A stretch of DNA of 41,050 bases. Origin: Myxococcaceae bacterium. GTDB taxonomy: Bacteria > Myxococcota > Myxococcia > Myxococcales > Myxococcaceae. The notes below the pieces were generated by a model. That model worked only from the letters and a program-made list of their open reading frames with translations. It had not been told where the DNA came from and searched no databases. The stretch covers positions 1 through 41,050 of the forward strand of contig JALHOS010000015.1 of NCBI GenBank assembly GCA_022842905.1, read 5' to 3'. Positions 12,455 through 30,168 of this stretch are shown here, one piece after another; the first letter of the stretch is position 1; each line of letters starts with the position of its first letter. The position numbers and the translations under genes were made by a program.

Positions 12455-13680
12455 TGCTCTACCTCGCCGCCGATCATGTTGATCGTGTCGAACGTGGGGA
12501 TCAGGTCGGCCAGCATGCGGCCTTCACACATGCGCGGGAGCGCGGACAGCAGCTGGAAGCCGGGCGCGCGAACGTGCACCTTGTACGGCCGGCCGGAGCC
12601 GTCGCTCTTGAGGTACCAGCCCAGCTCGCCATTGGCCGACTCCGTCGCGTGGTAGACCTCACCGACCGGCACCGGCACGCCTTCCATGACCAGCTTGAAG
12701 TGGGCGATCACCCCTTCGATCGTGCTGTACACCTGGTCCTTGGGCGGCAGCGCGATGCGCCAGTCGTCCACCATGACCGGCCCGCCCGGCATCATGTCGA
12801 TCGCCTGGCGGATCATGCGAATCGACTGCTCGATCTCCAGCACCCGCAGGTAGTAGCGCGCGAAGTTGTCGCCGTCGGACGCGACGGGCACTTCGAAGTC
12901 GAGCTTGTCGTAGACCCAGTACGGCTTGTTCTTGCGCACGTCGTACTTCACGCCGCAGGCGCGCAGGCACGGCCCCGAGAACCCGAAGTCCAGCGCGTCG
13001 TCCTTGCTGATCACGCCGGTGCCGCGCACACGGTCCGCGAAGATGCGGTTGCGGGTGAGCAGCCCGTCGACCTCGGCCGCGTACTGCTCGATCTTCACCA
13101 GCGACTTGAGGACGTTCTCTTCCCAGCCGGGCGGCAGATCGCGGTTCATGCCGCCGATGCGGCCGTAGTTCGTCGTCAGCCGCGCGCCGGTCAGCTCGGT
13201 GACGCGATCGGTGATGAGCTCGCGGCCTTCGATCGCGTAGAGGAACGCCGCGAAGCCCCCGAGCTCGAGCCCCAGCGCGCCGGCGGTCGTCAGGTGGCTG
13301 GCGATCCGGTGCAGCTCCGCGCCGATCACGCGGATGTACTTGGCCCGCTCGGGGATCTCGACCCCCATGAGCTTCTCGACCGCGGTGATGAAGCCGAAGT
13401 TGCAGGTCAGCGACGCGACGTAGTCGAGGCGATCCGTGTACGGAATGCACTGCGTCCACGTGACGTTCTCGCAGCTCTTCTGGAAGCCGCGGTGGAGGAA
13501 CCCGATCTCCGGGTCCATCTTGACGATCGTCTCGCCGTCCAGCTCCAGCTTGAGCCGCACGGTGCCGTGGGTCGCCGGGTGCGACGGGCCAAGGTTGATC
13601 TCCATGTTGCGCGTCTGCAGGTGCGCTTCGAGCTCGTCTTCGCTCGGCGTCGGATCGTAGTCGTCACCGGCTTGGGCCAT
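12451..13680 (-). CDS. nuoD: NADH-quinone oxidoreductase subunit D (NuoD, 49-kDa subunit)
   Basis: A 409-residue peripheral subunit that forms the quinone site with NuoB and NuoH. Landmarks are the opening NLGPSHPATHGTVRLKLELD (its HPATHG loop contacts the quinone head), GFLHRGFQKS, IGAELHRIASHL, GRIGGMNRDLPPGW, and the C-terminal signature PRMCEGRMLADLIPTFDTIN. Length is normal for the family. ATG 13680 has a GAGGA ribosome site seven bases upstream. It is encoded separately from nuoC, not fused as in E. coli. It overlaps nuoG by four bases, and no nuoE or nuoF lies between them. Confidence 0.97.
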   Translation of the reverse strand: MAQAGDDYDPTPSEDELEAHLQTRNMEINLGPSHPATHGTVRLKLELDGETIVKMDPEIGFLHRGFQKSCENVTWTQCIPYTDRLDYVASLTCNFGFITAVEKLMGVEIPERAKYIRVIGAELHRIASHLTTAGALGLELGGFAAFLYAIEGRELITDRVTELTGARLTTNYGRIGGMNRDLPPGWEENVLKSLVKIEQYAAEVDGLLTRNRIFADRVRGTGVISKDDALDFGFSGPCLRACGVKYDVRKNKPYWVYDKLDFEVPVASDGDNFARYYLRVLEIEQSIRMIRQAIDMMPGGPVMVDDWRIALPPKDQVYSTIEGVIAHFKLVMEGVPVPVGEVYHATESANGELGWYLKSDGSGRPYKVHVRAPGFQLLSALPRMCEGRMLADLIPTFDTINMIGGEVEQ

Positions 13681-16522: not shown

Positions 16523-17308
16523 ATGGGCTCGAAGGTCCAGCCGTTGATCTGGGCGCTGCACGACAGCGTCATGGTGCTCGCCCCGGCGGGCTGGTCGTCC
16601 GTGGAGCTGCGCTTTGCCCGCACCGCCGACGGGCTGCGCCTGACCGAGCTGTCGACGAAGGGAACGGGGGCCGCCGCGCCGCGCCCGAAACCGGCGCTGA
16701 CGATCGACGCCCGCGCCGAGGCCTTGCGGCTGTCCCAGGCTTTCGAAGACCTGCTGGCCGAAGTCGGTCGGCAGGGCGCAGTGCGCGCCGTCGTCGAGCG
16801 GTCCGCGGACCTGGCCGACTGGCGCTTGTTCGACGCGCAGGATCACCTCGCCTACTTCACGCGCGTGCCCCGCGCCGAGCTCGACGGGCTGGTCATGACC
16901 GACGCGCTGTTCGAGCTGCTGGCGGGCAGTGAGGCCGCGTTCGGCTACGTGCAAGCGCAGCTCGAGGCGCGGCTCGCCTCGCACCCCGGCGGCGCGCAGG
17001 CGCTCTTGGCTCACGGGGCTCACGTGCTCCTCGGCGACTACTTCCCGGGCGACTACGTCTGGGTGTGGAGTTGGTCGGAAGAAGACGGCAGCGCGCCTCC
17101 GGCGGTGCGGCGGGTGTGTGCGGTCGACGCCCAGCCCGCTGGCCTCGCCGCGCTCTGGCGGCCGGCGGTGCACGTCGAAGAAGGCCTCGCTTGGGCCCTG
17201 GCCGGGAGCGTCTGCATGGCCCTGGGCGCCCGCGGGTTGCTTCGCGTTCCCCACGCGCAGGGCGGCGGCGTGAGCTTCGTCGCGGTCGAGCCGGCGACGG
17301 TCAGCTGA
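16523..17308 (+). CDS. Hypothetical soluble protein
   Basis: A 261-residue protein with no signal peptide or membrane segment. Composition is Ala/Leu-rich, with a Trp-rich stretch about two-thirds along (GDYFPGDYVWVWSWSEED). I recognise no family. ATG 16523 lacks a clear ribosome site. It is divergent from the receiver gene, with 94 bases between their starts that may hold both promoters. It looks like a real gene because codon use is ordinary and both flanks are tightly packed. Function unknown. Confidence 0.7.
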   Translation: MGSKVQPLIWALHDSVMVLAPAGWSSVELRFARTADGLRLTELSTKGTGAAAPRPKPALTIDARAEALRLSQAFEDLLAEVGRQGAVRAVVERSADLADWRLFDAQDHLAYFTRVPRAELDGLVMTDALFELLAGSEAAFGYVQAQLEARLASHPGGAQALLAHGAHVLLGDYFPGDYVWVWSWSEEDGSAPPAVRRVCAVDAQPAGLAALWRPAVHVEEGLAWALAGSVCMALGARGLLRVPHAQGGGVSFVAVEPATVS

Positions 17309-17396
17309 AGCTTTGTGCGCCGGGGGCCCGGGCCCGTGTGCTTTGCTCCGCCCGCCTTTTCCCCTCGTCGGTTCTTCAAAGAGTCTTCGATCGCCC

Positions 17397-18188
17397 ATGT
17401 GGATGACGGTCTTCGTGCTGGCTGCTGCACCCGTGAAGCTCGCGGTGAACGACTTTTCGACGAACGGAAACGTCGACCGGCAGATCGTCGGCGCGCTGCA
17501 AGAACGCTTCGCGCAGGGCGTGGCGCGGCCGGGGCGGGCCGAAGTCCTCACGCCTCGAGCCGTCGCGGCCGTGCTGGGCCTGGAACGGCAGAAGCAGCTG
17601 CTGGGCTGTCAGGACGACTCCTGCCTGGCCGAGCTGTCCGGCGCCTTGGGGGTCGACGCGCTGGCCGTCGGTGACGTGGTGCGGCTCGACGCGACGCTGC
17701 TGCTCAACGTGCGCGTGGTCGACGTGCGCAACGCGAAGACCCTGGCGTCTGCGTCAGCGACGGCGAAGAACTTCGACGCGCTGCTCCCGCAAGTGGACAC
17801 CGTCGCCGCGGAGGTCGAGCGCAAGCTCCTGCACCACCTGCGCGGCGCGCCGCTCGCCGCGCCGATTCCCGTCGCGCCGTGGCTCGTCATGGGGACCGGC
17901 CTGGCCGCGCTCGTGGCTGGCAGCGTGCTGCTCGGGACTGGCCTGACCGATCGCGACGCCGTCGTCGCCAGTGGCCAGTCCGCCACCCCGGCCTGGACTC
18001 CGGGCGAGGCGGTCATCGTCCTCAGGAATGCCGCCGGGCGCGCCACGGCCGGGCTGATCGTCGGTGGGGTCGGGCTCGCGGCGATCGTCGGCGGCTTGGT
18101 CTGGCGGCTGCTCGGCTTTCGTGAGGCCCCGTTGTCACTTCGGCTCGACCGCGGCGAGCTCGGTGTCTTCGCCGGAGGTCCGTGGTGA
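17397..18188 (+). CDS. CsgG/TolB-like protein with two C-terminal membrane helices
   Basis: A 263-residue protein. Residues 1-12 are a weak signal (MWMTVFVLAAAP). The next part, to about residue 155, reads like the small alpha/beta domain found in CsgG, LpoB or TolB-N proteins (KLAVNDFSTNG, then a region around LGCQDDSCLAELSGALGVDA, then LLLNVRVVDVRNAKTLASAS). Two hydrophobic segments follow (about 161-183 and 216-238), with a short tail. The domain assignment is by resemblance only. It overlaps the next lipoprotein by four bases (GTGA), so the two are probably made together and may act in one envelope complex. Confidence 0.72.
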   Translation: MWMTVFVLAAAPVKLAVNDFSTNGNVDRQIVGALQERFAQGVARPGRAEVLTPRAVAAVLGLERQKQLLGCQDDSCLAELSGALGVDALAVGDVVRLDATLLLNVRVVDVRNAKTLASASATAKNFDALLPQVDTVAAEVERKLLHHLRGAPLAAPIPVAPWLVMGTGLAALVAGSVLLGTGLTDRDAVVASGQSATPAWTPGEAVIVLRNAAGRATAGLIVGGVGLAAIVGGLVWRLLGFREAPLSLRLDRGELGVFAGGPW

Positions 18189-19834
18189 GGCGCGCGCTAC
18201 CGCTGCTGTTGGCCGCCCTTGCCCAGGGGTGTGACTTCACGAGTGATGCCACCGCCTATCGCGAGGCGTACTGCGCCAGGGTGTGCGCGGCCGCAGCACC
18301 AGAGTGTGCCGTGCACTGCGACGGAGGGATCGCCGACTCCGGTATGCGTGACGCGGGCGCCGGGCAGGACGCGGGGCTCGCCGACGGCGGCCCGGTCGAT
18401 GCCGGCGCGGATGGGGGTGGACCGGACTCAGGTAGCGCGGACGCCGGGGCTCCGGACGCTGGCGGTGTGGACGCTGGCAGTGTGGACGCTGGCAGTGTGG
18501 ACGCTGGCAGTGCGGACGCTGGCAGTGCGGACGCTGGCAGTGCGGACGCTGGCAGTGCGGACGCTGGCAGTGCGGACGCCGGCAGCGTGGACGCCGGCAG
18601 CGTGGACGGCGGGCCATGGCTCGTGCAGCTCACGTCGCCGGGCCCCTTTGCGCTGACCGCGTTGGCGCCGTGGGGAGAGGGCGCCGTCTTCGCGGGCCGT
18701 GGCGGCAGCGTGTGGCTCCAGGACCAGTGGCTCCCGGTGGACGCCGGCGCGCAGTCGCTCCTGGTCGTCCGCGTCGATGGCGCGGGCAGCGTCGCCGGCG
18801 TGCGACGGCTGACGGTGCGGGCGACGGCGGACTTCGACCGGCTCCTGCTGCTGCCGCAAGAACTCGGGTTCCTGGCGGTCGGTACCGTGTCCGGGGCGAT
18901 CGACGAGCTGCCGAGCCTCGGCGTCGCTGCCGGCACCGACGTACTGCTCGTTGGCTTTGGGCCGGACCTGGCGCCGCGCTGGGCGCACCGGCTGGGCGGC
19001 GCCTCGACGGATCGGGTGATCGGCGCATGGCTCGAGTCCCCAACCTCCGCCCAAGTCGCCATGACGCTGCCAGCGGGTGGGTCGAGTGCCGGGGTCACCG
19101 TGTCGCGAGGCACCGCGGTCGTCCGGGTTCGCTTCGACGGTGGACTCGAGCACGTCGAGCACTTTCCCGAGGTGCTGCTGGGCGGCATGGCGCAGCTCGG
19201 GGCCGCGCGGCTCGTCGTCGGCGAAGCCTTGGCGGACGGCGGTAGCGGCGGCTTGTTCCCCGCGCAGCTCCCCGGCAGCACGTACTTCGCCGTGTCTGAC
19301 GGAGGCGCGGGCTACCAGCTCGTCGGATCGACGGCGCACGACGGGCTCGCGGATCTCGATTGCAGCCTCGTCGAAGCCGGCGTCGGCGGCGCGCTCGTTG
19401 GCTGCGCGTTCGACGACGACGCCCCGGCGCGCCTCCGGGTCGGCGCGGTCGATGCGGGACCCACCACCGCGTTTGTGCTCGAGCTGGGCGGCGACGGGCA
19501 GCTCCGGTCGCTGACGGCCTTGCCTCGGCGGATCGGCGTGATTCCGTCGCTCGCCGGCTCGTTCGAAACGGCGGCGGGCCGAGGCTACGCGGTGTCGGAC
19601 CTGCCGCTCATGGGGGAAGACGAGGCGCGCTACGTGTTTCAGCTGAGCGACGGCGGCTTCGACGAGTCGGTCCACGCGCTGAGCGTGCGGCGGGTCGTCG
19701 GCCACTCGAGCGGGTCCGCGTTCGTGCTCGGGGTCCTGCGCAGCGGTCCTGCGACGCGCGCGGTCTTCCCGGGGCTCAGCGTGAGCTATGACGGTGGGTA
19801 CCGAGCGATCGCAACCAGGGTTCGGTTGCCGTGA
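18185..19834 (+). CDS. Lipoprotein with nine-copy DAGS repeat linker
   Basis: About 549 residues. The signal RRALPLLLAALAQGC ends in a lipobox Cys near residue 16. A Cys-containing stretch follows (residues 30-45: YCARVCAAAAPECAVHC), then a DAG-rich linker with a perfect-register five-residue repeat (V/A-D-A-G-S). From about residue 140 there is a beta-rich region of repeated Gly/Val/Leu strands (for example GFLAVGTVSGAIDELP, then VLLVGFGPDLAPRWAHRLGG) that looks like a propeller. I chose GTG 18185, which gives the GTGA overlap with the upstream gene; GTG 18182 is one codon earlier. A decayed copy of its 3' end lies downstream at 20949-21087. Function unknown. Confidence 0.8.
   Translation: MRRALPLLLAALAQGCDFTSDATAYREAYCARVCAAAAPECAVHCDGGIADSGMRDAGAGQDAGLADGGPVDAGADGGGPDSGSADAGAPDAGGVDAGSVDAGSVDAGSADAGSADAGSADAGSADAGSADAGSVDAGSVDGGPWLVQLTSPGPFALTALAPWGEGAVFAGRGGSVWLQDQWLPVDAGAQSLLVVRVDGAGSVAGVRRLTVRATADFDRLLLLPQELGFLAVGTVSGAIDELPSLGVAAGTDVLLVGFGPDLAPRWAHRLGGASTDRVIGAWLESPTSAQVAMTLPAGGSSAGVTVSRGTAVVRVRFDGGLEHVEHFPEVLLGGMAQLGAARLVVGEALADGGSGGLFPAQLPGSTYFAVSDGGAGYQLVGSTAHDGLADLDCSLVEAGVGGALVGCAFDDDAPARLRVGAVDAGPTTAFVLELGGDGQLRSLTALPRRIGVIPSLAGSFETAAGRGYAVSDLPLMGEDEARYVFQLSDGGFDESVHALSVRRVVGHSSGSAFVLGVLRSGPATRAVFPGLSVSYDGGYRAIATRVRLP
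18467..18601 (+). repeat. 15-bp tandem repeat, nine copies, encoding (V/A)DAGS
   Basis: Nine consecutive 15-bp units, starting GTGGACGCTGGCAGT. The first three begin GTG, the next five GCG, and the last GTG. The final two units use GCCGGCAGC in place of GCTGGCAGT. Runs of identical units point to recent slippage or unequal exchange. Every unit keeps the reading frame, so length change would only shorten or extend the linker. Confidence 0.92.
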
Positions 19835-20284
19835 CCCAAGCGGTGATCAGCGCCGCGCACGAGCGACGCCGGTGAACCTCGATTCGAGTGCGTCGCGTCG
19901 AGGCTTTCCCGCCCGCAGGACGGGCGTTCGTCAGGCGCGCCGTCCGACCCTCCCCGCCCCGGCGCTCACGTCCCGCCACGGCTGTCGGAGCCCAACGCAG
20001 ACCCGTCGTGTCAGCCGTCCACGTACGCGCCCTGCGCCTGGTCGGGCCAGAGGTGCGCGGCGTGGCTGCGGCTCGCAGTGCTTGCGGCGAGCCGCCGTCG
20101 AAGTCGAGTCGGCATGTCGCGAAAGTAACCCCTTGCGCGAACACCGCCGCAGTGAGGGAGCGTTGACGCGGGCCGAGTTCTGGTTGTTCACGGCTTAAGG
20201 GGATGCGTCGTTCACGCCAGCGCCCAACAACCGCACCGACGTTGCTGGGAGAATGAAGTAACTCGCAGCCCCACGGTGAATCCC
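19835..20284. other. 450-bp stretch with no convincing gene
   Basis: Short open frames occur on both strands but none has a signal, motif or ribosome site I trust. Two features stand out: a terminator-like hairpin early on, and an imperfect hairpin at 20223-20249 (CCCAACAAC against GTTGCTGGG, one mismatch) upstream of the next gene. The first 40 bases resemble the sequence following the decayed copy near 21090, so the duplication covers this flank too. Confidence 0.6.
19877..19903 (+). terminator. Possible terminator after the DAGS lipoprotein
   Basis: CCTCGA (19877-19882) pairs with TCGAGG (19898-19903), followed by CTTTCCC. The loop is 15 bases, so the hairpin is weak. A second small stem, CGCCCG/CGGGCG, lies at 19910-19926. 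Position 42 bases after the stop codon fits a terminator. Confidence 0.3.
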
Positions 20285-20917
20285 ATGTCCGTCCGCATCG
20301 GTGAAGAACGCAACGCCTCGACCCAACAGTTCGTCTCCCCGCGCGACCTCCTTCGCAACGAGGTTCGGACGGCTCTGGCCGAGAAGGGCACGGTTCGGCT
20401 CTCGAAAGCGCCCGAGATTCCAGCGGGGGCCGCCAAAGTCGTCGTCGACAGCGACTGGACCAAGGGTCGCACCGCGACGCGCGTGGGCGAGGCCGTCTAC
20501 ATCCACTCGTATTCGTTGAAGTCGCCTGGCGCAGAAATGACGACGGACTCGTGGCACAAGCTCGCCAGCGTACCCCCCGCCCTCGACGCCAGCCTCACCC
20601 GGACCGAGGTTCAGCACGCGGTCGAGAACCTCAAGCCGCCGCCGACGGGCTTCAACCCGGCTTGGTCCTCGCGAGCACCAGACAGGAAGGACGTGCTGGC
20701 GCGGATTCCCTTGGCTGGATCGCGCACGCCGTTCACCGTGAGCGCGCTGATTCTCAAGGGCAATCGCATGGTCTTCGAGCAAGTCCTCACTGGCGGCAAG
20801 CGCCCAGCTCAGCCGGGAGACGAGCGCTATAGCCGCCCGACGTCCCTGCCTGCGAAGCTGGCTCCCGCCGGCTTTGACTGGGCGCAGTTCGGGGACTTCA
20901 CCCGCGGACGGCACTGA
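20285..20917 (+). CDS. Hypothetical protein next to duplicated sequence and tRNAs
   Basis: A 210-residue protein with no signal peptide, membrane segment or motif I recognise. It starts MSVRIGEERNASTQQ and ends QFGDFTRGRH. The ATG at 20285 has GGTGA five bases upstream; a GTG nine bases earlier is in frame but would place that site inside the gene. Content is polar with many Pro, Arg and Lys; it could be cytoplasmic or secreted by a non-classical route. It sits alone between the two copies of a lipoprotein 3' end, so it may have arrived or been trapped during that rearrangement. Function unknown. Confidence 0.66.
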   Translation: MSVRIGEERNASTQQFVSPRDLLRNEVRTALAEKGTVRLSKAPEIPAGAAKVVVDSDWTKGRTATRVGEAVYIHSYSLKSPGAEMTTDSWHKLASVPPALDASLTRTEVQHAVENLKPPPTGFNPAWSSRAPDRKDVLARIPLAGSRTPFTVSALILKGNRMVFEQVLTGGKRPAQPGDERYSRPTSLPAKLAPAGFDWAQFGDFTRGRH

Positions 20918-20948
20918 CTCGTCCATTCAACCTGGGAGGCGCATCGGA

Positions 20949-21087
20949 GTGAGGCAGGTCGTTGGCTCCTGGAGTCGGTCGAAGGAGTCTGCGAAGCGGT
21001 CCTTCGACGTGCACGGTCTGTTGGGGCTCAGCGGTGAGCGACGACGGCGGCTACCGAGCGATCGCAACCAAGGTCCGGCTGCCGTGA
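20949..21087 (+). pseudogene. Decayed duplicate of the 3' end of the DAGS lipoprotein gene
   Basis: This segment aligns by eye with 19685-19834. The intact gene ends VSYDGGYRAIATRVRLP-stop; here the matching frame reads VSDDGGYRAIATKVRLP-stop (stop 21085-21087). Upstream, VRQVVG matches VRRVVG, but insertions and deletions break the frame between the two blocks, so no intact product is possible. The homology continues a little past both stop codons. It is a remnant of a paralogue that once lay here. Confidence 0.75.
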
Positions 21088-21097
21088 CTCGTGCCTT

Positions 21098-21115
21098 GAT
21101 CGCTGACGCGATCAC
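21098..21115 (-). terminator. Perfect 7-bp inverted repeat downstream of tRNA-Glu
   Basis: TGATCGC (21098-21104) and GCGATCA (21109-21115) form a perfect stem with a four-base loop, 32 bases past the tRNA-Glu 3' end on the minus strand. No T-run follows, so termination is plausible but unproven. Confidence 0.35.
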
Positions 21116-21146
21116 CGACGCTCGACGACCAGCTCAACCAGTTGGT

Positions 21147-21219
21147 TGACCCCACCGGGATTCGAACCCGGGTTTTAGCCTTGAAAGGGCCACGTCCTAG
21201 GCCTCTAGACGATGGGGCC
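21147..21219 (-). tRNA. tRNA-Glu (anticodon TTC)
   Basis: 73 bases without an encoded CCA in the usual position. On the minus strand the acceptor stem GGCCCCA pairs with TGGGGTC. The D-arm TCGTCTAGAGGCCTAGGAC is nearly that of E. coli tRNA-Glu. The anticodon loop is CTTTCAA (anticodon TTC), and the T-arm contains GGTTCGAATCC. The discriminator base is A rather than the G found in E. coli. It lies 13 bases downstream of tRNA-Lys and is probably processed from the same transcript. Confidence 0.95.
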
Positions 21220-21232
21220 AGATTCACTTGTG

Positions 21233-21305
<73 letters not shown>

Positions 21306-21327
21306 ATAGAGCGTCGATTCGCCGGTG

Positions 21328-21909
21328 TCACTTCTTCGCTTTGTCAGCCTCCACGGTGACTTGCAAGGACGACTTCACGGCGTCCACCTGAACGTCAATC
21401 TGCGTGCTGCCGGGGTCGAGCGGCAGAATGTCGCCGCCGCCGACGATCTGCGCGACCGCCTTGTCCTTCGTCGACAGCGTCACCTGGCGATCCGTGAGCA
21501 GCCGCCCGTCCGCCGCGTACGCCTTGACGGTCGGGTGGTACGCCGAGTCGCCTTCCTTGAGCGTCACGACTTTGGGCTCCACTTCGATCCGCTCCACCAG
21601 GATCACGTTCACCGTCGAGCGCGCCTCGACGTCGCCGTACTTGGCGATGATCTCGGTCGTGCCTGACTTCATCGGCTTGACGAGCCCCTTCGGCGTGACG
21701 GTCGCGATCGACGGGTCCTTCGACGACCACGTCACCTGCGCCTTCACCGCGCGGACACCGGTCCGGGCCATGCACTTGGCTTCGACGAACTTCTCGTTGT
21801 TCAGCTGCTTGAAGTCGATCGTGCTCGGGCTCAGCTCGATGAAGTCCACCTGCTCACAGCCCGTGAGCGCGAGCACCAACCACAGCCCTGCCGCGATTCG
21901 CAACGCCAT
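21328..21909 (-). CDS. Lipoprotein with two bacterial Ig-like (Big_2-type) domains
   Basis: 193 residues. The signal MALRIAAGLWLVLALTGC has lipobox LTGC. Two beta-sandwich repeats follow. The first (about 25-103) has VTWSSKDPSIATVTPKGLV and SGTTEIIAKYGD, the usual Big_2 pattern. The second (about 108-187) has RIEVEPKVVTLKEGDS and VTLSTKDKAVAQIVGGGD. Such domains serve as adhesion or spacer modules on the cell surface. There is no further domain, so this is a short two-domain rod on the membrane. It is divergent from the haem-lipoprotein gene and upstream of the two tRNAs. Specific role unknown. Confidence 0.87.
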   Translation of the reverse strand: MALRIAAGLWLVLALTGCEQVDFIELSPSTIDFKQLNNEKFVEAKCMARTGVRAVKAQVTWSSKDPSIATVTPKGLVKPMKSGTTEIIAKYGDVEARSTVNVILVERIEVEPKVVTLKEGDSAYHPTVKAYAADGRLLTDRQVTLSTKDKAVAQIVGGGDILPLDPGSTQIDVQVDAVKSSLQVTVEADKAKK

Positions 21910-21984: not shown

Positions 21985-24429
21985 ATGCTGGACATGCGTC
22001 AAGCCCGAGTCGGTTCAATTCTGTGTTTTCTGGTGTTTACGGGCTGCCAGCCGACGAACGACGGCCAGCTCGTGATCCGCGCTATGCCGGAGCAGCCGAG
22101 TTTGGCGCCCGTGCTGCCGACGCTGGGGCTTCGGCCGAGCCGGCCCTTCGTGGGCACCTGCCGGAGCACCAAGGCTGTCTTCCAGCGCGACGTGTGGAGC
22201 GGCTTCATGAGCCGGGCCTGCGCGGGCTGTCACACGCTCGACGGCAGCGCGGTGGAGCGGGGCGCTCGCTTCATCTTGCAGCGCGAGAACACGCCGGCGT
22301 TCCTCGACTACAACTTGGCCGCGGTTCGGACGATCGCCCTCGAAGACGTGGCGGGCATGCCCAAGATCCTCGCCAAGGCGCAGGGCCTGGCGAACCACGG
22401 TGGCGGCCAGGTGCTCAACCCGGCGGGTGAGGAGTTCAACACGCTCGCCTCGCTCGTGCGGACGCTGCGCTCCGGCCAGGAGGCGACCTGCCCGCCGCAA
22501 GATCACGGCGTGTTCGACGGGCTGCGCTTGCTGGGCAACCGAGAGACGCTGCGCAAGGCGGCGCTCGGCGTCGCCGGCACGGTTCCCACTCCCGCCATGC
22601 TCGACCTCGCGCAGACCGACGACGGGCTCGATCGCCAGCTCGACGAGCTGCTGCGCCAGGAGGGCTTCTTCGACTGGCTCAAGGACGCGTGGAACGACGT
22701 GCTGCTCGTTCGTCGCGGGACCGCCAGCTCCGTGGGGCTCGACGACTTCGACCCGGCCGATTTCCCGCGCGTCACCTACTACAAGGGGCGCCCGACGTCG
22801 GACGAGTACGCGCTGGTTCAGCACGCGATCGCCGAGCAGCCGTTGGAGCTCATCGAGTACATCACTCGCGAAGATCGCCCGTTCTCCGAAGTGCTGACTG
22901 GCTCGTACACGGTCGTGAACCCGTGGCTCGCCGACCTCTTGGGCGTGCCCGGTCTGCCGGCTCCGACTGCGGAGAATAAGGGGTACTGGCAGCTGGCTCG
23001 CACCGTCACCGCGCGGCAGGGCAGCAGCCCCGTCGCCATGCCCATGGCCGGCGTGCTGACGACGCCGGGCTTCCTGGCGCGCTACCCCACGACGCCGAGC
23101 AACCGCTCCCGCGGCCGCGCGCGGCACGTGATGAAGATCTTCCTCGGGTCCGACGTGCTCACCCTGGCGACGCGGCCCATCGACGCGGCGCAGCTCTCGA
23201 CGGTGATCAACGCGACGCGGAACAGCGCCAGCTGCGCGGTGTGCCACCAGTTCATGGAGCCGGTGTCGGGCTTCTTCATGGGCTTCGGCGAGGCTGACGG
23301 GAAGAACTACGCGTTCGATCCGAACCGCGCCTGGCACGCCGACATGTTCCCCGCGGGCTTCAACGGGCAGCTCATGCCGGCCGGCGAGTACCAGCGCGCC
23401 GCGGCGTGGGGCGGGGCGCAGCTTGCCAGCGACCGGCGCTTCGCCCTGGCCGTCACCCAGCACATGTACCGCGCGCTCACCCAGGCGCCGCTGCTGCCGT
23501 ACCCCATGGATTCCGCCGACCCGCGCTTCGAGCAGCAGCTGCGCGCGTGGACCGCCCAGGACGAGTACCTCCAGCGGCTGGCGACGCAGTTCGCCGAGCG
23601 CAGCTACTCGATGAAGTGGCTCCTCAAGACGCTGATCAAGGGGCCGTACTACCGCAGCATCGCTCACGACGCGTCTGAGCCCGAGGTGCTGGCGGTGTTC
23701 GGCGCCGGCAAGCTCCTGACGCCCGAGCAGCTCTCGCGAAAGATCCTCGCGACCACGGGGGTTCGGTTCGGGCGCGGCTACGTCACGACGCCGCTCGGCA
23801 TCAAGCCGCACGAGACGTTGATCGACGACCACTACTTGTCGGCCGGCGGCATCGACTCGGACGTCGTGGTGTCGCGGCCGACGAGCTTCAGCACCATCGG
23901 CGGCGCGCTGCTCGATCGCATGGCGGCGCAGGTGGCGTGTGTCGCGGTGCCGTACGACTTCTCGAAGGTCAGCAGCCAGCGCACGCTGTTCCCCGGCATC
24001 GATCTGGCGCAGGTGCCCCTCGTGCCGGACGACGAAGGCACGGCGATGAACCCCCACCCCGAAGGTGAGCAGCACATTCGCCGCGGCCTGGTCTCTCTCT
24101 ACGCGCGGCTGCTCGGCCGGGAGTTCGGGCCGCAGGACGAGCCGATCAACGACGCGTTCGACCTGTACGTCGACGTGTGGCGGGATCTGCGGCAGCAGGG
24201 GACGGTGGATCTCTCGCGGGCTGGCGTCGGCGAGGGCTGCGCGGCCGAACTCGACCCCAACGCCCCGGTGACCAGCGGCGTGCTCGGGCAAGGGGGGACC
24301 GTCACCGACCACGCCGTTCAGGCGCTGCCCATGGCGCGGCGAATCACCACTGACCCCACGTTCACCCTGCGCTCGTGGCAGGCCGTCACCTGGTACCTGC
24401 TCAGCGACCCCTCGTTCCTCACGGAGTGA
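21985..24429 (+). CDS. Di-haem-motif lipoprotein, DUF1588-type, copy 1
   Basis: 814 residues. A lipoprotein signal (MRQARVGSILCFLVFTGC, from the second in-frame ATG at 21994) precedes two c-type haem motifs: C79-A-G-C-H83 near the N-terminus (cytochrome-like domain as in planctomycete PSCyt1) and C417-A-V-C-H421. The second lies in a DUF1588-like block: NRSRGRARHVMKIFLG upstream, then NATRNSASCAVCHQFMEP. DUF1588/1592 proteins often lie next to a DUF1501 or DUF1552 gene, as here. The motifs imply covalent haem attachment in the periplasm, so an electron-transfer or oxidase role is likely; the substrate is unknown. ATG 21985 is used, but 21994 may be the true start. It is paralogous along its length to the protein at 25803-28223. 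Confidence 0.88.
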   Translation: MLDMRQARVGSILCFLVFTGCQPTNDGQLVIRAMPEQPSLAPVLPTLGLRPSRPFVGTCRSTKAVFQRDVWSGFMSRACAGCHTLDGSAVERGARFILQRENTPAFLDYNLAAVRTIALEDVAGMPKILAKAQGLANHGGGQVLNPAGEEFNTLASLVRTLRSGQEATCPPQDHGVFDGLRLLGNRETLRKAALGVAGTVPTPAMLDLAQTDDGLDRQLDELLRQEGFFDWLKDAWNDVLLVRRGTASSVGLDDFDPADFPRVTYYKGRPTSDEYALVQHAIAEQPLELIEYITREDRPFSEVLTGSYTVVNPWLADLLGVPGLPAPTAENKGYWQLARTVTARQGSSPVAMPMAGVLTTPGFLARYPTTPSNRSRGRARHVMKIFLGSDVLTLATRPIDAAQLSTVINATRNSASCAVCHQFMEPVSGFFMGFGEADGKNYAFDPNRAWHADMFPAGFNGQLMPAGEYQRAAAWGGAQLASDRRFALAVTQHMYRALTQAPLLPYPMDSADPRFEQQLRAWTAQDEYLQRLATQFAERSYSMKWLLKTLIKGPYYRSIAHDASEPEVLAVFGAGKLLTPEQLSRKILATTGVRFGRGYVTTPLGIKPHETLIDDHYLSAGGIDSDVVVSRPTSFSTIGGALLDRMAAQVACVAVPYDFSKVSSQRTLFPGIDLAQVPLVPDDEGTAMNPHPEGEQHIRRGLVSLYARLLGREFGPQDEPINDAFDLYVDVWRDLRQQGTVDLSRAGVGEGCAAELDPNAPVTSGVLGQGGTVTDHAVQALPMARRITTDPTFTLRSWQAVTWYLLSDPSFLTE

Positions 24430-24437
24430 TCCACACC

Positions 24438-25790
24438 ATGAACCGCCGCACGTTCCTTCGAGGCGCGACCCTCGGCAGCATGTCCCTGATCCTCCCGTGG
24501 GGCGCCTCGTCCCAGGCGCGCGCAGACGCCATTCGCTACACGGGCCCGGTGTTCTTCCACCTGCACCTCGCTGGCGGGTGGGATCCGACGTTCACCTTCG
24601 ATCCCAAGCCCAACCTGAGCAACCTGTTCGGCGAGTCCGACGTCCGCACCCACGGCGAGTCGGCCGTGCCGTACGCCGACATTCCGCTCAGCGGCTACGG
24701 CGTGACGATCGACACGGTCGGCAACTTCATGCGCGACCACGGCAACGACTTCACGATCGTCAACGGCATCGACGTCGCCACGATCAACCACGGCGTCGCC
24801 GCGCAGGCGATGGGGTCCGGCCACGGCATCACCGAGCTGCCCGCGTTCGCGGCGCTCGCCGCCGCCAAGGTGTCGCAGCAGGCCGACGTGCCGCTCGCCT
24901 TCGTCGGGGGCGGAGGCTACGAGTTCTCGGCCGGGCTGGTGCCGGTCACGCGGCGCAACTCGTCGGTGATCGCCGAGGTCGCCTACCCCAACCGGCAGAA
25001 CCCGGCGAACACCAACGGGCTCAACCTGCACGAGAGCGCGTACCGGAAGGTCATGGCCGCCCGGAACGCCCAGCTCACCAAGCAGTTGACGCAGGCGTCG
25101 CTGCCGCGCACCAAGGCCGCGCTCAATGCGCTCAAGGACGCGCGGGCTCGGTCCAACGCGCTGGCGACGCTGGTGGGGCTGCCGAACAACGCCGTGCGCT
25201 CGCGCACCGTGTTCTCTCAGCTCGCCACCGCCCCGCAAGGCAGGCTGGACGACCTCGACGCGGCGCTCAGCCACACCGAGATGGCGCTGCAGGGCTTCCG
25301 CGAAGGCATGTCCGTCTCGTCCACGCTCGAGTTCGGCTGGTTCGACACGCACTGCCACCACGACCTGGAGCACCCGGTGCTCATCGGCCAGAGCCTGCTG
25401 ATCGCCCGGTACGTCCTGCAGAAGGCCGTCGAGTACGGCATTCGGGACCGGCTGTACTTCCTCATGTCGACCGACGTCGGCCGGACGCCCAACTACAACG
25501 GCTGCGGCAAGGACGACTGGAACGTGTGCAGCGCGCTGATCAGCGGTCCGCGCTCGACGGTCTCGACGTTGGGGCAGCGCGTCGGGGCCAGCGGCCCGGG
25601 GCACACGCCCCTGCTCATGACGCCCACCAACCTCACGGGAACGGCGACGGCCAACGACGCGAACGCCACCAGGCTCAAGCCCGCGCACGTGCACGGGGCG
25701 CTGCGGCGGGCCTTCGGCATCACCGGCACCGAGCTCGATCGCCGCTTCCCCTTGGCGGACATGACGGCGCCGCTGCCGCTCCTGGGCTGA
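24438..25790 (+). CDS. Tat-exported DUF1501 protein, copy 1
   Basis: 450 residues. A twin-arginine signal (NRRTFLRGATLGSMSLILPW) ends near ASSQARA, so it is exported folded, often meaning a cofactor is present. The body resembles DUF1501, an uncharacterised family with an alkaline-phosphatase/sulfatase-like fold: FDTH (302-305), then a late block DVGRTPNYNGCGKDDWN. In the second copy and in the family generally this block reads FGRTP...GKDHW; here the His is Asp (D360). ATG 24438 lies nine bases after the upstream stop, and the next gene starts 12 bases after this stop, so all four genes form one operon. Substrate unknown. Confidence 0.88.
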   Translation: MNRRTFLRGATLGSMSLILPWGASSQARADAIRYTGPVFFHLHLAGGWDPTFTFDPKPNLSNLFGESDVRTHGESAVPYADIPLSGYGVTIDTVGNFMRDHGNDFTIVNGIDVATINHGVAAQAMGSGHGITELPAFAALAAAKVSQQADVPLAFVGGGGYEFSAGLVPVTRRNSSVIAEVAYPNRQNPANTNGLNLHESAYRKVMAARNAQLTKQLTQASLPRTKAALNALKDARARSNALATLVGLPNNAVRSRTVFSQLATAPQGRLDDLDAALSHTEMALQGFREGMSVSSTLEFGWFDTHCHHDLEHPVLIGQSLLIARYVLQKAVEYGIRDRLYFLMSTDVGRTPNYNGCGKDDWNVCSALISGPRSTVSTLGQRVGASGPGHTPLLMTPTNLTGTATANDANATRLKPAHVHGALRRAFGITGTELDRRFPLADMTAPLPLLG

Positions 25791-25802
25791 GGACCCCCAA
25801 CC

Positions 25803-28223
25803 GTGGCTTCGAAGTGGCTGGTGGGGTGCCTGGTGTCGTGTGTGCTCGTCGGCTGCGACGGCATGGCGAGGATCCGCCTGCCGGGGCAGGACGGCGGCGG
25901 GCCCGTCACGGAGCCAACGGTGGACGCCGGCGGCCCCACGGACTGCGTGAGCACCCACGCGCGCTTCGAACGCGACGTGTGGAGCGCGTTCATGAGCCGC
26001 AGCTGCGCGGGCTGCCACGTGCCCGACGGGACCGCCTCGGAGCGCGGCGCGCGCTTTCTGCTCCAGCGGGAGACGTACCCCGCGTTCATCGACTTCAACC
26101 TCGCGGCCATCAAGTCGATCGCGATCGAGGACGTCGCCGGCACGCCCAAGCTGCTCGCCAAGGCGCTCGGCCAGGCGGGGCACGGCGGCGGGACGGTGCT
26201 GACCGCCAACAGCGATGAGTACCGGGCCCTCGCGGAGATCGTGGGCGCGCTTCGAGAAGATCGGCTCGTCACCTGTCCGGGTGAGAACTCCCGGGTGTTC
26301 GACGGGCTCGAGCTGCTGACGGCGCCGCAGACGCTGCGAAAGGCGGCGATGAGCTTGGGCGGGTACGTGCCTTCACCAGCCGCGCTCGCGCAGGCGGCCA
26401 CCGACGCGGGGCTCGACGCGCAGCTCGACGAAGTGCTTCGCCGCCCCGAGTTCTACGCGTGGCTCAAGGACGTCTGGAACGATCAGCTGCTGGTGCGCAA
26501 AGGGCTGACCGTCGGCTTGCCCGGCGTCTACGAGTTCCACCCCAGTGAGCACCCGCGCGCGGTGCACTACCAGAACGTGGGCACGTCAGGGTACGCGAGC
26601 GCCGAAGAGTACTGGACCGCCGTGTGGGGCGTCGTCGAGCAGCCGCTCAAGCTGATCGAACACGTCGTGCGCGAAGACCGGCCGTTCACCGAGATCCTCA
26701 CGGCGCAGTACACGTTCGTGAACCCGTCCTTGGGGGACATTCTGGGCATTGGAGGGCTGCAGACCGTCAGCTACGCCAACAAGGACGTGTGGACGCGGGT
26801 GGATCACGTCTATTCGAAACCAGGCACGGCGGCTCAGGTCGAAGTCCCGCTGGCAGGGGTGCTCACGTCGCCAGGCTTCTTGGGGCGCTTCGTGACGACG
26901 GCGACCAACCGCAGCCGGGCGCGCAGCCGCGCCGTGTACCGCATCTTCCTCGGGACCGACCTGTTCACGCTCTCGCAGCGCGGGGTCGACACGTCGTCGC
27001 TGACGTCGATCATCAACGCCGAGCGCAACAACGCGGCCTGCTCGGTGTGTCACCAGGTCATGGACCCCATCGCCGGGTTCTTCCGCGGCTTCCAGGAGCA
27101 CGACGGCCTGTACAACTTCTCTTTCGAAGGGGCGCACCAGTGGCACCCGGAGATGTACCCGCCGGGCTTCAGCGGCGCGCTCATGCCGTCGGAGCAGTAC
27201 TCGAGCGCGACGCGCTGGGGCGCACAGCAGCTGGTCCAAGACAAGCGCTTCAGCCTGGCGGTGACGCAGACCATGTTCCGAGCCTTGGTGGGCGGGGCCT
27301 TGCTCAAGTACCCGACGGATCCGACCGAAGCGGCGTTCGAGACGAAGCGGGTCGCGTGGGCTGCGCAAGACGACTACCTGCAGGGCCTGGCCAAGCAGTT
27401 CGCCGAAGCGCACAACTTCTCGCTCAAGTGGCTCGTCCGCGAGATCGTCAAAGGCCCCTACTACCGCGCCAGATCGCACAGCTCGACGGACCCCAACCTG
27501 GTCGGAGCGTTCGGCTTTGGCCGGCTGCTCACGCCGGAGCAGCTCTCGCGCAAGCTGCTGGCAACCACCGGCATGCTCTACGGGATCGGCCACTACACCC
27601 CGCACACCGGGCCCAAGCGCCACGACTACCTGCTCGACAGCTACCCGATTCAGGCGGGCGGGATCGACAGCAACAGCGTGACGACGCGGCCCACGCAGCT
27701 CGGCGCTTTGTCGGCGGCGCTCATGGGCCGCATGGCCGCGTACGTCGCGTGCCGCGCGACGGGGTTCGACTTCAGCAAGGCGCCGGCGGACCGGGTGCTC
27801 TTCCCGGAGATCGAGCTGGGGGACGTGCCGCTGACCCAGGTCGCCGGGGAATGGGTGCCGCACCCGCAAGGGGCGCCCAAGCTCCGGCGGGCGCTCGTGC
27901 GGCTCCACGCGCGGCTGCTCAACGAGGAACTCGAGCCCAGCTCGGCGCGCATCGACCAGTCCTTCGCCCTACTCGCCGACGCCTGGCAGTTGCTGCGCAC
28001 GGCGGGACAGCCAGGCTTCTCGAACGGCGGCATCATCGAAGGGTGCGCGGCGACCGAAGACCATGACAACCCGGTGCGCGACATGGCTGGGGCGGTGGTC
28101 AACCACCAGCTCCAGCCACTGCCGGCAGCGCGGCAGATCACGTCGGATCCCAACTTCACGCTGCGCGCCTGGCAGGCGGTCGTCTGGTACCTGCTGAGCG
28201 AGCCGCGGTTCCTGATGGAGTAG
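25803..28223 (+). CDS. Di-haem-motif lipoprotein, DUF1588-type, copy 2
   Basis: 806 residues, starting at GTG 25803 with TGAGGA about nine bases upstream. The signal MASKWLVGCLVSCVLVGC ends in a lipobox Cys. The haem motifs are C68-A-G-C-H72 and C413-S-V-C-H417, at nearly the same spacing as in copy 1. Shared blocks with copy 1 include RDVWSAFMSRSCAGCH, NRSRARSRAVYRIFLGTD, LLTPEQLSRKLLATTG and, at the end, FTLRAWQAVVWYLLSEPRF. A short DAG-type linker follows the signal. It is likely a periplasmic, membrane-anchored redox partner of the adjacent DUF1501 protein. The activity is not known for this family. Confidence 0.89.
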   Translation: MASKWLVGCLVSCVLVGCDGMARIRLPGQDGGGPVTEPTVDAGGPTDCVSTHARFERDVWSAFMSRSCAGCHVPDGTASERGARFLLQRETYPAFIDFNLAAIKSIAIEDVAGTPKLLAKALGQAGHGGGTVLTANSDEYRALAEIVGALREDRLVTCPGENSRVFDGLELLTAPQTLRKAAMSLGGYVPSPAALAQAATDAGLDAQLDEVLRRPEFYAWLKDVWNDQLLVRKGLTVGLPGVYEFHPSEHPRAVHYQNVGTSGYASAEEYWTAVWGVVEQPLKLIEHVVREDRPFTEILTAQYTFVNPSLGDILGIGGLQTVSYANKDVWTRVDHVYSKPGTAAQVEVPLAGVLTSPGFLGRFVTTATNRSRARSRAVYRIFLGTDLFTLSQRGVDTSSLTSIINAERNNAACSVCHQVMDPIAGFFRGFQEHDGLYNFSFEGAHQWHPEMYPPGFSGALMPSEQYSSATRWGAQQLVQDKRFSLAVTQTMFRALVGGALLKYPTDPTEAAFETKRVAWAAQDDYLQGLAKQFAEAHNFSLKWLVREIVKGPYYRARSHSSTDPNLVGAFGFGRLLTPEQLSRKLLATTGMLYGIGHYTPHTGPKRHDYLLDSYPIQAGGIDSNSVTTRPTQLGALSAALMGRMAAYVACRATGFDFSKAPADRVLFPEIELGDVPLTQVAGEWVPHPQGAPKLRRALVRLHARLLNEELEPSSARIDQSFALLADAWQLLRTAGQPGFSNGGIIEGCAATEDHDNPVRDMAGAVVNHQLQPLPAARQITSDPNFTLRAWQAVVWYLLSEPRFLME

Positions 28224-28243
28224 TCGACGCAGGCGAGGTGCCC

Positions 28244-29638
28244 ATGGCGCTGTCACGCAGAACCTTCCTTCGAGCGTCCTCGGCGTCGAGCATTGGCTTG
28301 CTGCTGCCCTGGGCCGCGTCGTCGCAGGCGCACGGCCAGGCGCTCACGTACGAAGGGCCGTTCTTCTTCAACATTCACGCCGCCGGCGGGTGGGACCCGA
28401 CGCTGTCCTTCGACCCCAAGCTCATGAACGGCTCGACGGTCGTGAACAACGCGTTCACGTCGGCGCAGCTGCGTACGTTCGGGCCGACTGGCATGCCGTA
28501 CGCAGACGTGCCGCTGGTCGACGGGCCCAACACCGCCAGCGCGCTTCAGCTCGACACCGTCGGCAACTTCATGCGCGATCACGGCGCGGACTTCGTCTTC
28601 CTCAACGGCATCGACACCGCGACCAACAACCATGAAGTCGGAACGCAGGCGATGGGGTGCGGCAAGTCCATCGAGGCGCTGCCGGCGCTCGCCGCGCTGA
28701 TCGGCGCGCAGGTGTCGGAGCAGCGCGACGTTCCGCTGGCCTTCATCGGCGCCGGCGGGTTCGAATTCACCGGCGGCGTCGTGTCGTTGTCCCGCGTGAA
28801 CGCGAGCGTGCTGCAGGAAGTGAGCACCCCCAATCGCCAGTACGGGTACTCCGCGCAGTATCTCAACCTGCCGGACCCGGTCTTCCAGCGGGTCATGCGC
28901 GCGCGGAACGACTCGCTCAATGCACAGCTCGCGCAAGCCGCGCTGCCTCGCGCGAAGGCGGCGCTGTCGGCCATGAAGGACGCGCAGGCGCGCACCGACG
29001 CGCTGGCGGCCCTGGTCAGTCAGCTGCCCACCACGGCGGTGACCGCCAAGACCCACTTCCCGCACCTCGCGTCGGCGGCGGACGGGCGCCTGGGAGATCT
29101 CGACGCGGCGCTCGGGCAGATCGAGCTGAGCCTGCTGTCCTTCAAGGCCGGGCTGTCGGCGGCGGCGTCGCTGCACGTCAGCGGCTTCGACACGCACTCG
29201 AGCCACAATGACGCGCAGACCGTCGTGTTGGGAAAGCTCCTCTTGGCGCTGCGGTACCTGCTGACCAAGGCCACGGCGCTCGGCTTGCGGGACAAGATCT
29301 ACGTGGCCGTGACCTCCGAGTTCGGCCGTACCCCCGGGTACAACGCGGGCAACGGCAAGGATCACTGGAACATCACCTCGGCGATGCTCGCCGGCCCGCG
29401 GCAGGTGGTGCGCTCGGCTGGCCGCGCGCTGGGCGCCACCGATGCTGGGCACAAGCCCAAGGTCGTCACGCCGGACAACCTCACCGGCTCGGCGCCGACG
29501 TCGGCCGCCAACGCCACCCGCCTCAAGCCGCAGCACCTGCACCAGACCTTGCGCGGCGCCTTCGGCCTGACCGGCACCGAGCTGGACCGGCGATTTGCGT
29601 TGCCTCCGTCCGCCCCGCTGCCACTGTTCGCCGCGTGA
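28244..29638 (+). CDS. Tat-exported DUF1501 protein, copy 2
   Basis: 464 residues from ATG 28244, which has GAGG five bases upstream. The Tat signal is SRRTFLRASSASSIGLLLPW, with cleavage likely after ASSQAHG. Family landmarks are FDTHSSHND and the late block SEFGRTPGYNAGNGKDHWN, with H374 at the position that is Asp in copy 1. Near the C-terminus both copies share ATRLKPxHxHxxLRxAFGxTGTELDRRF. It probably keeps the full metal site while copy 1 may not. The stop overlaps the greB start (GTGA). No experimentally known activity can be assigned. Confidence 0.89.
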   Translation: MALSRRTFLRASSASSIGLLLPWAASSQAHGQALTYEGPFFFNIHAAGGWDPTLSFDPKLMNGSTVVNNAFTSAQLRTFGPTGMPYADVPLVDGPNTASALQLDTVGNFMRDHGADFVFLNGIDTATNNHEVGTQAMGCGKSIEALPALAALIGAQVSEQRDVPLAFIGAGGFEFTGGVVSLSRVNASVLQEVSTPNRQYGYSAQYLNLPDPVFQRVMRARNDSLNAQLAQAALPRAKAALSAMKDAQARTDALAALVSQLPTTAVTAKTHFPHLASAADGRLGDLDAALGQIELSLLSFKAGLSAAASLHVSGFDTHSSHNDAQTVVLGKLLLALRYLLTKATALGLRDKIYVAVTSEFGRTPGYNAGNGKDHWNITSAMLAGPRQVVRSAGRALGATDAGHKPKVVTPDNLTGSAPTSAANATRLKPQHLHQTLRGAFGLTGTELDRRFALPPSAPLPLFAA

Positions 29639-30168
29639 GTGAGGCGAACGACTCCGACGACGACGACGCGGACGACGAAGCAGACGCGCCGCGCGGCGCG
29701 CTCTACATCACTCCCGCTGGCGCCCAGAAGCTCAAGGCGGAGCTCCAGCACCTGCTGCGGGTGGAGCGGCCCAAGGTGACGGCCGAGGTGTCCTTCGCCG
29801 CGTCGCTGGGCGATCGATCCGAGAACGCCGAGTACATTTACGGCAAGCGCAGGCTGCGGGAGATCGACCGGCGGCTGCGGTGGCTCGACAAGCGGATCGA
29901 GCGGCTGACCGTCGTCGACCCGACGGCGCAGGCGGACCGGTCCAAGGTGTACTTCGGCGCCACGGTCACGCTCGAGAGCGACGAAGACGGCGGCAGGGTG
30001 ACGTACCAGCTGGTCGGCCCGGACGAGACGGATCTGAAGGCGGGCCGCATCTCGGTCGAGTCGCCGGTGGCGCGCGCGCTGCTCGGACGCAAGCGGGGTG
30101 ACACCGTCACCGTGCGCCGACCGAAGGGGGAGGTGGACTTCACCGTCGTGGGCGTGAAGTACGTCTAG
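29635..30168 (+). CDS. greB: Transcription elongation factor GreB
   Basis: 177 residues. GreB rescues backtracked RNA polymerase by stimulating transcript cleavage. The coiled-coil tip carries the acidic pair (D60 and E63 in ASLGDRSENAEY), and the GreB-type helix YIYGKRRLREIDRRLRWLDK follows. The C-terminal FKBP-like domain is complete (GRISVESPVARALLGRKRGD). An extra acidic N-terminus (residues 2-18, mostly Asp and Glu) is unusual for the family. It starts at GTG 29635, overlapping the DUF1501 stop by four bases, so its translation is coupled to an operon of exported proteins. It may also have its own promoter inside the upstream gene. Confidence 0.95.
   Translation: MSEANDSDDDDADDEADAPRGALYITPAGAQKLKAELQHLLRVERPKVTAEVSFAASLGDRSENAEYIYGKRRLREIDRRLRWLDKRIERLTVVDPTAQADRSKVYFGATVTLESDEDGGRVTYQLVGPDETDLKAGRISVESPVARALLGRKRGDTVTVRRPKGEVDFTVVGVKYV

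Follow-up and report, generated by a model that had tools for sequence, protein, structure and literature searches.

Why does the end of a putative lipoprotein gene occur twice beside a pair of tRNA genes, and what is the second copy? In the window (the whole stretch of Myxococcaceae bacterium DNA that was analysed, 41,050 nucleotides), the elements that raise this question are the following.

18182–19834, plus strand: DAGS-repeat putative lipoprotein gene, an open reading frame of 550 codons and the intact parent of the repeat
19685–19857, plus strand: copy 1, the last 150 bases of this gene and about 23 bases after its stop (alignments, position counts)
19835–20275, no strand assigned: gene-poor spacer of 441 bases, without detectable lipoprotein sequence
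20276–20917, plus strand: uncharacterised gene, open over 213 codons, with a GTG start (an ATG is possible at 20285)
20949–21110, plus strand: copy 2, a decayed copy of the same segment (alignments, position counts, protein match)
21143–21220, minus strand: tRNA-Glu (TTC)
21232–21305, minus strand: tRNA-Lys (TTT)

Both tRNA genes lie on the minus strand and the 3′ end of tRNA-Glu therefore faces the remnant. Judged from the sequence, copy 2 is probably what is left, in decayed form, of a duplicated 3′ end of the DAGS-repeat gene, that is, a pseudogene fragment.

The segment at 19685–19857 recurs colinearly and on the same strand at 20949–21110. In the core pair (19736–19834 and 20989–21087, stop included), 84 of the 98 aligned bases are identical, with two cancelling one-base indels and an offset of 1253 bases between the copies. 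Local alignment of 19500–20284 with 20918–21146 gave a score of 123, whereas the best of 500 first-order Markov randomisations scored 34. Upstream of the core, 24 of 32 bases are identical between 19685–19716 and 20949–20980, a match that, the segment itself excepted, was equalled at none of 41018 window positions; the colinear alignment score of this upstream part was matched by 24 of 5000 randomisations. The initial annotation had proposed that the last 150 bases of the gene reappear in decayed form from 20949, ending in almost identical C-termini. The core score and the 24/32 block, which supports the start, agree with this, and both C-termini read as described. Further upstream, from about 20939 back, no similarity was detectable (2114 of 5000 randomisations were equally good).

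The similarity had also been said to extend past both stops, and for this the support is weaker. Over the 23 colinear bases that follow the stops, compared without gaps, 14 are identical. At least as many agree at 112 of 41027 positions of the window, or at 50 of 41027 when the query is the other copy. Longer flanks, aligned locally and freely, gave no significant score (1447 of 5000 randomisations did as well). The shared strand, together with the similarity running past the stop, favours a duplication of DNA over convergence of two protein ends, and we infer duplication as the origin of the second copy. When copy 2 was searched against the whole genome (7,854,015 bases in 667 contigs), copy 1 was the only comparable match (E 8.7e-23; the next had E 0.068). 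Outside the shifted codons, the copies show 6 synonymous and 5 non-synonymous differences, with 3.3 synonymous expected at random (P 0.07). This pattern is not significant but is compatible with divergence during which at least one copy was constrained.

Copy 2 is clearly damaged. Downstream of its upstream block (20949–20980) it carries a 10-base gap and a further one-base gap, it has several one-base indels in all, and nothing of the gene is seen upstream of about 20939. At the protein level, the match is 70% over 33 residues (20986–21084). The remnant is still open for 44 codons up to its stop, slightly more orderly than a random wreck would be; the two cancelling indels and the short length explain this openness. 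Just past the stop, a perfect hairpin of 7 base pairs with a 4-base loop lies at 21097–21114, about 30 bases from the 3′ end of tRNA-Glu, and has no T run.

The stretch between the copies was searched for the missing gene body. Neither the spacer (19835–20275) nor the 213-codon gene (20276–20917) contained lipoprotein sequence above random, whichever strand was compared (34 to 94 of 200 randomisations scored as well). Elsewhere in its own genome, the spacer gave short matches of 20–48 bases alone, five beyond itself at E up to 0.1. These formed no coherent gene on comparison and were provisionally taken for chance. With homology to the intact neighbour beyond chance and with a damaged frame, copy 2 has two marks of a duplicate-gene remnant; no remains of the other parts of the gene were found, and no intact copy in the relatives searched. 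The missing trace bears on whether the duplicate was once full length and not on whether it is a duplicate of the 3′ end, and a duplicated and decayed 3′ end is well supported.

The G+C content of the DAGS-repeat gene itself is 0.78, 0.58 and 0.84 by codon position. Pfam gave a weak Pentapeptide_2 match alone, below the cut-off and over the DAGS repeats. The would-be lipobox is LAQGC, which is atypical by the usual lipobox rule, and naming the product a lipoprotein is a guess. A whole-protein query matched relatives mainly via the DAGS repeats, so the C-terminal 406 residues were used instead. In their own genome, these residues match only themselves and the remnant. In the order, 1 of 144 other genomes has a weak match, a stretch of 51 residues with E 4.3e-4; at most 12 candidates were scored per genome in this search, and a search of 40 genomes with every candidate scored had the same outcome. 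In the named genome collection, the C-terminal query gave 67 pattern matches, none of which was confirmed, by a method that reaches close relatives only and may have left out the source genome. A 21-base pattern from the shared core found one record, a single match in an Acidiferrobacteraceae MAG that was taken for chance.

These searches turned up neither a relative with two copies nor one with an intact paralogue. Since the C-terminal part has a match, and a weak one, in only 1 of the 144 other genomes, an intact second copy could not be sought elsewhere. The lists of relatives include no other genome of the same genus, so that the comparison gives no order of events. The comparison proposed at the outset, in which relatives might carry either an intact second lipoprotein gene or the same short remnant, revealed neither, in a set of genomes where the same genus is absent and the contrast is weak. 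In the other loci fetched from relatives, copy 2 gave only scattered matches of 21–43 bases.

The surroundings of the repeat are more widely conserved, and the following features anchor the comparison.

16523–17308, plus strand: DUF6882-like gene, which anchors the conserved layout on the left (Pfam 25.2 bits, cut-off 23.9)
17313–18188, plus strand: gene just upstream of the DAGS-repeat gene, weakly resembling DUF2380/DUF3280 (Pfam 26.4 bits, below the cut-off of 30.1)
21328–21909, minus strand: Big_2-domain gene, right anchor beside the tRNA pair (Pfam 45.7 bits, cut-off 22.8)
29635–30168, plus strand: greB (NCBIfam GreB 208 bits, cut-off 188)

The Big_2 loci of 14 relatives, the best of 27 other genomes with a match, were examined. 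In the stretches fetched, both tRNA-Lys and tRNA-Glu were present in 11, one tRNA in two and none in one. In all nine of the longer stretches greB adjoins the Big_2 gene; in the window, four genes and 7.7 kb lie between them. Relatives of the DUF6882-like gene were found in 19 genomes of the family besides its own (20 of 96 in all). The tRNA pair was found within the fetched flank of about 1.5 kb in 9 of these 19 loci and not in the other ten, including one genome (G004) in which the gene and the tRNA pair are about 2 kb apart on one contig. The older layout was thus likely a DUF6882-like gene, the tRNA-Glu/tRNA-Lys pair, the Big_2 gene and greB.

In the nine relatives, the gap from the DUF6882-like gene to tRNA-Glu measures 45, 63, 362, 417, 433, 436, 447, 449 and 1126 bases; in the window it measures 3834. 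The DUF2380-like gene, the DAGS-repeat gene, the spacer, the 213-codon gene and the remnant are consequently all in a stretch that those relatives lack here. Seven relatives have a small conserved gene in this gap, on the strand of the tRNAs (e.g., L048:8236–8505), which had no match in the window, the only sequence searched for it. Proteins related to the product of 17313–18188 are present in 88 of 145 genomes of the order, and the pair formed by a weakly DUF2380-like gene and a DAGS-repeat gene seems to be repeated in the genome, for example on contig C398 (3596–4330 and 4516–4797). On the other side of the tRNAs, between the Big_2 gene and greB, the region 21985–29638 holds two gene pairs with DUF1588/DUF1592-type matches (below or near cut-off) and DUF1501 matches. 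As greB adjoins the Big_2 gene in nine relatives, these pairs are a second expansion beside the same tRNA pair.

A simple series of events would account for the locus. In this lineage the convergent gap between the DUF6882-like gene and the tRNA-Glu/tRNA-Lys pair probably gained extra sequence, in which the lipoprotein gene lies together with a repeat of its final 150 bases or more. This distal copy would have lost its body, or never had one, and would then have gathered small deletions and frameshifts; it would do nothing evident now. The 213-codon gene between the copies could be there because the body of the duplicate was deleted, or because a rearrangement placed foreign sequence next to its end. 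Like the remnants known from tandem duplications, copy 2 is on the same strand as an adjacent gene, homologous to it beyond the stop, decayed by indels and incomplete; unlike them, it is detectable as a 3′ end alone and has an unrelated gene between it and its parent. The first of the two readings in the initial annotation was a tandem paralogue mostly lost. The duplicated and decayed 3′ end agrees with this reading, which is plausible, but the space between the copies holds no lipoprotein trace and none of the relatives searched an intact copy, so that a lost paralogue goes beyond the evidence. The observation is true and its cause most likely ordinary. Beyond careful annotation its significance is small, as it adds one example to the gene copies that decay in gaps next to conserved tRNA genes.

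The leading alternative, although an unlikely one, is that a mobile unit carried the spacer and the 213-codon gene into the lipoprotein end or to a place beside it, and that the flanking copies arose with the insertion. The copies do flank a gene of a patchy family (10 of 145 genomes), and the block lies 3′ of a tRNA, where insertions are common. However, when the 25 longest of 45 pairs were inspected, no inverted repeats lay at the edges, and no transposase, integrase or reverse transcriptase family was found in the 24 of 29 candidate window frames scanned with Pfam. Moreover, usual target duplications are far shorter than this direct repeat of about 160 bases, and the 213-residue protein found no match in plasmids or viral contigs. 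The second reading in the initial annotation, an insertion within a duplicated gene, gained no positive support: it likewise lacks inverted repeats at the edges among the pairs compared, and no repeat of the tRNA end was found near the block.

Two known kinds of tRNA-linked or cassette-borne insertion were also compared with the block. The 3′ end of tRNA-Glu borders directly on sequence that was not seen in nine relatives, as it would with a genomic island inserted there; unlike such an island, the block has no repeat of the tRNA 3′ end near it and no integrase family in the 24 frames scanned. With up to 2 mismatches, tRNA 3′-end queries of 16 and 18 bases matched the tRNA itself only, and a 14-base query had a single additional match, at 12650 within a complex I gene. 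Without a far-edge repeat or an integrase, the assignment to a tRNA-associated island was rejected. Integron cassettes have paired RYYYAAC and GTTRRRY cores around a gene; here there is one RYYYAAC at 21132 and GTTRRRY in neither flank, and this assignment was rejected as well.

Returning to the decayed duplicate, we also weighed whether copy 2 is instead a kept element, such as a transcription terminator or a buffer between the convergent lipoprotein and tRNA genes. We regard this as improbable, even more so than a mobile unit. The hairpin between the remnant's stop and tRNA-Glu, perfect over its 7 base pairs, would suit such a role, but it is absent from copy 1, and the similarity is mostly in the coding part. 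The four strands fold unremarkably (z of −0.03, −1.39, −0.51 and 0.70), and simple consensus scans of 19700–21350 gave no terminator-like or promoter-like sites. In addition, the scattered short matches of copy 2 across the other fetched loci argue against a conserved element. A more specific form of the idea is very improbable: the copy beside tRNA-Glu would be kept because it acts, for example by serving as a gene-conversion donor for the lipoprotein C-terminus or by buffering convergent transcription that runs towards the tRNAs.

Finally, we give hardly any credence to the copies being the template and variable repeat of a diversity-generating retroelement targeting the lipoprotein C-terminus: such systems do repeat a gene's 3′ end with a second copy downstream of that gene, as here, whereas the 27 mismatches between these copies are not adenine-specific (copy 2 has 21 A, of which 4 are mismatched, and copy 1 has 20, of which 3 are), both copies have indels and no reverse transcriptase family was found in the 24 frames scanned.

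With the decayed duplicate as the preferred reading, the gene between the copies can be considered on its own. Its protein had no match in Pfam, NCBIfam or PHROGs, none among PDB sequences (three-row profile) and none in plasmids; viral contigs gave four pattern matches, 0 confirmed. A structure model from the single sequence was unusable (mean pLDDT 35.4). The G+C content of the gene by codon position is 0.65, 0.54 and 0.82. A four-row profile, of which one row (L059) appears in our reading to be out of frame in its first half, found the family in the 10 genomes of the order counted above, own included, all of one taxonomic family; stop codons interrupt 6 of the 16 matches. This small family, which within the order searched was seen in a single taxonomic family, is all at this locus that might merit later work. 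The same genome encodes a paralogue on another contig (C150; 38% identity, E 1.9e-30), and across the patchily distributed family the C-terminal part is conserved as LKG...TGG..P..PGD.
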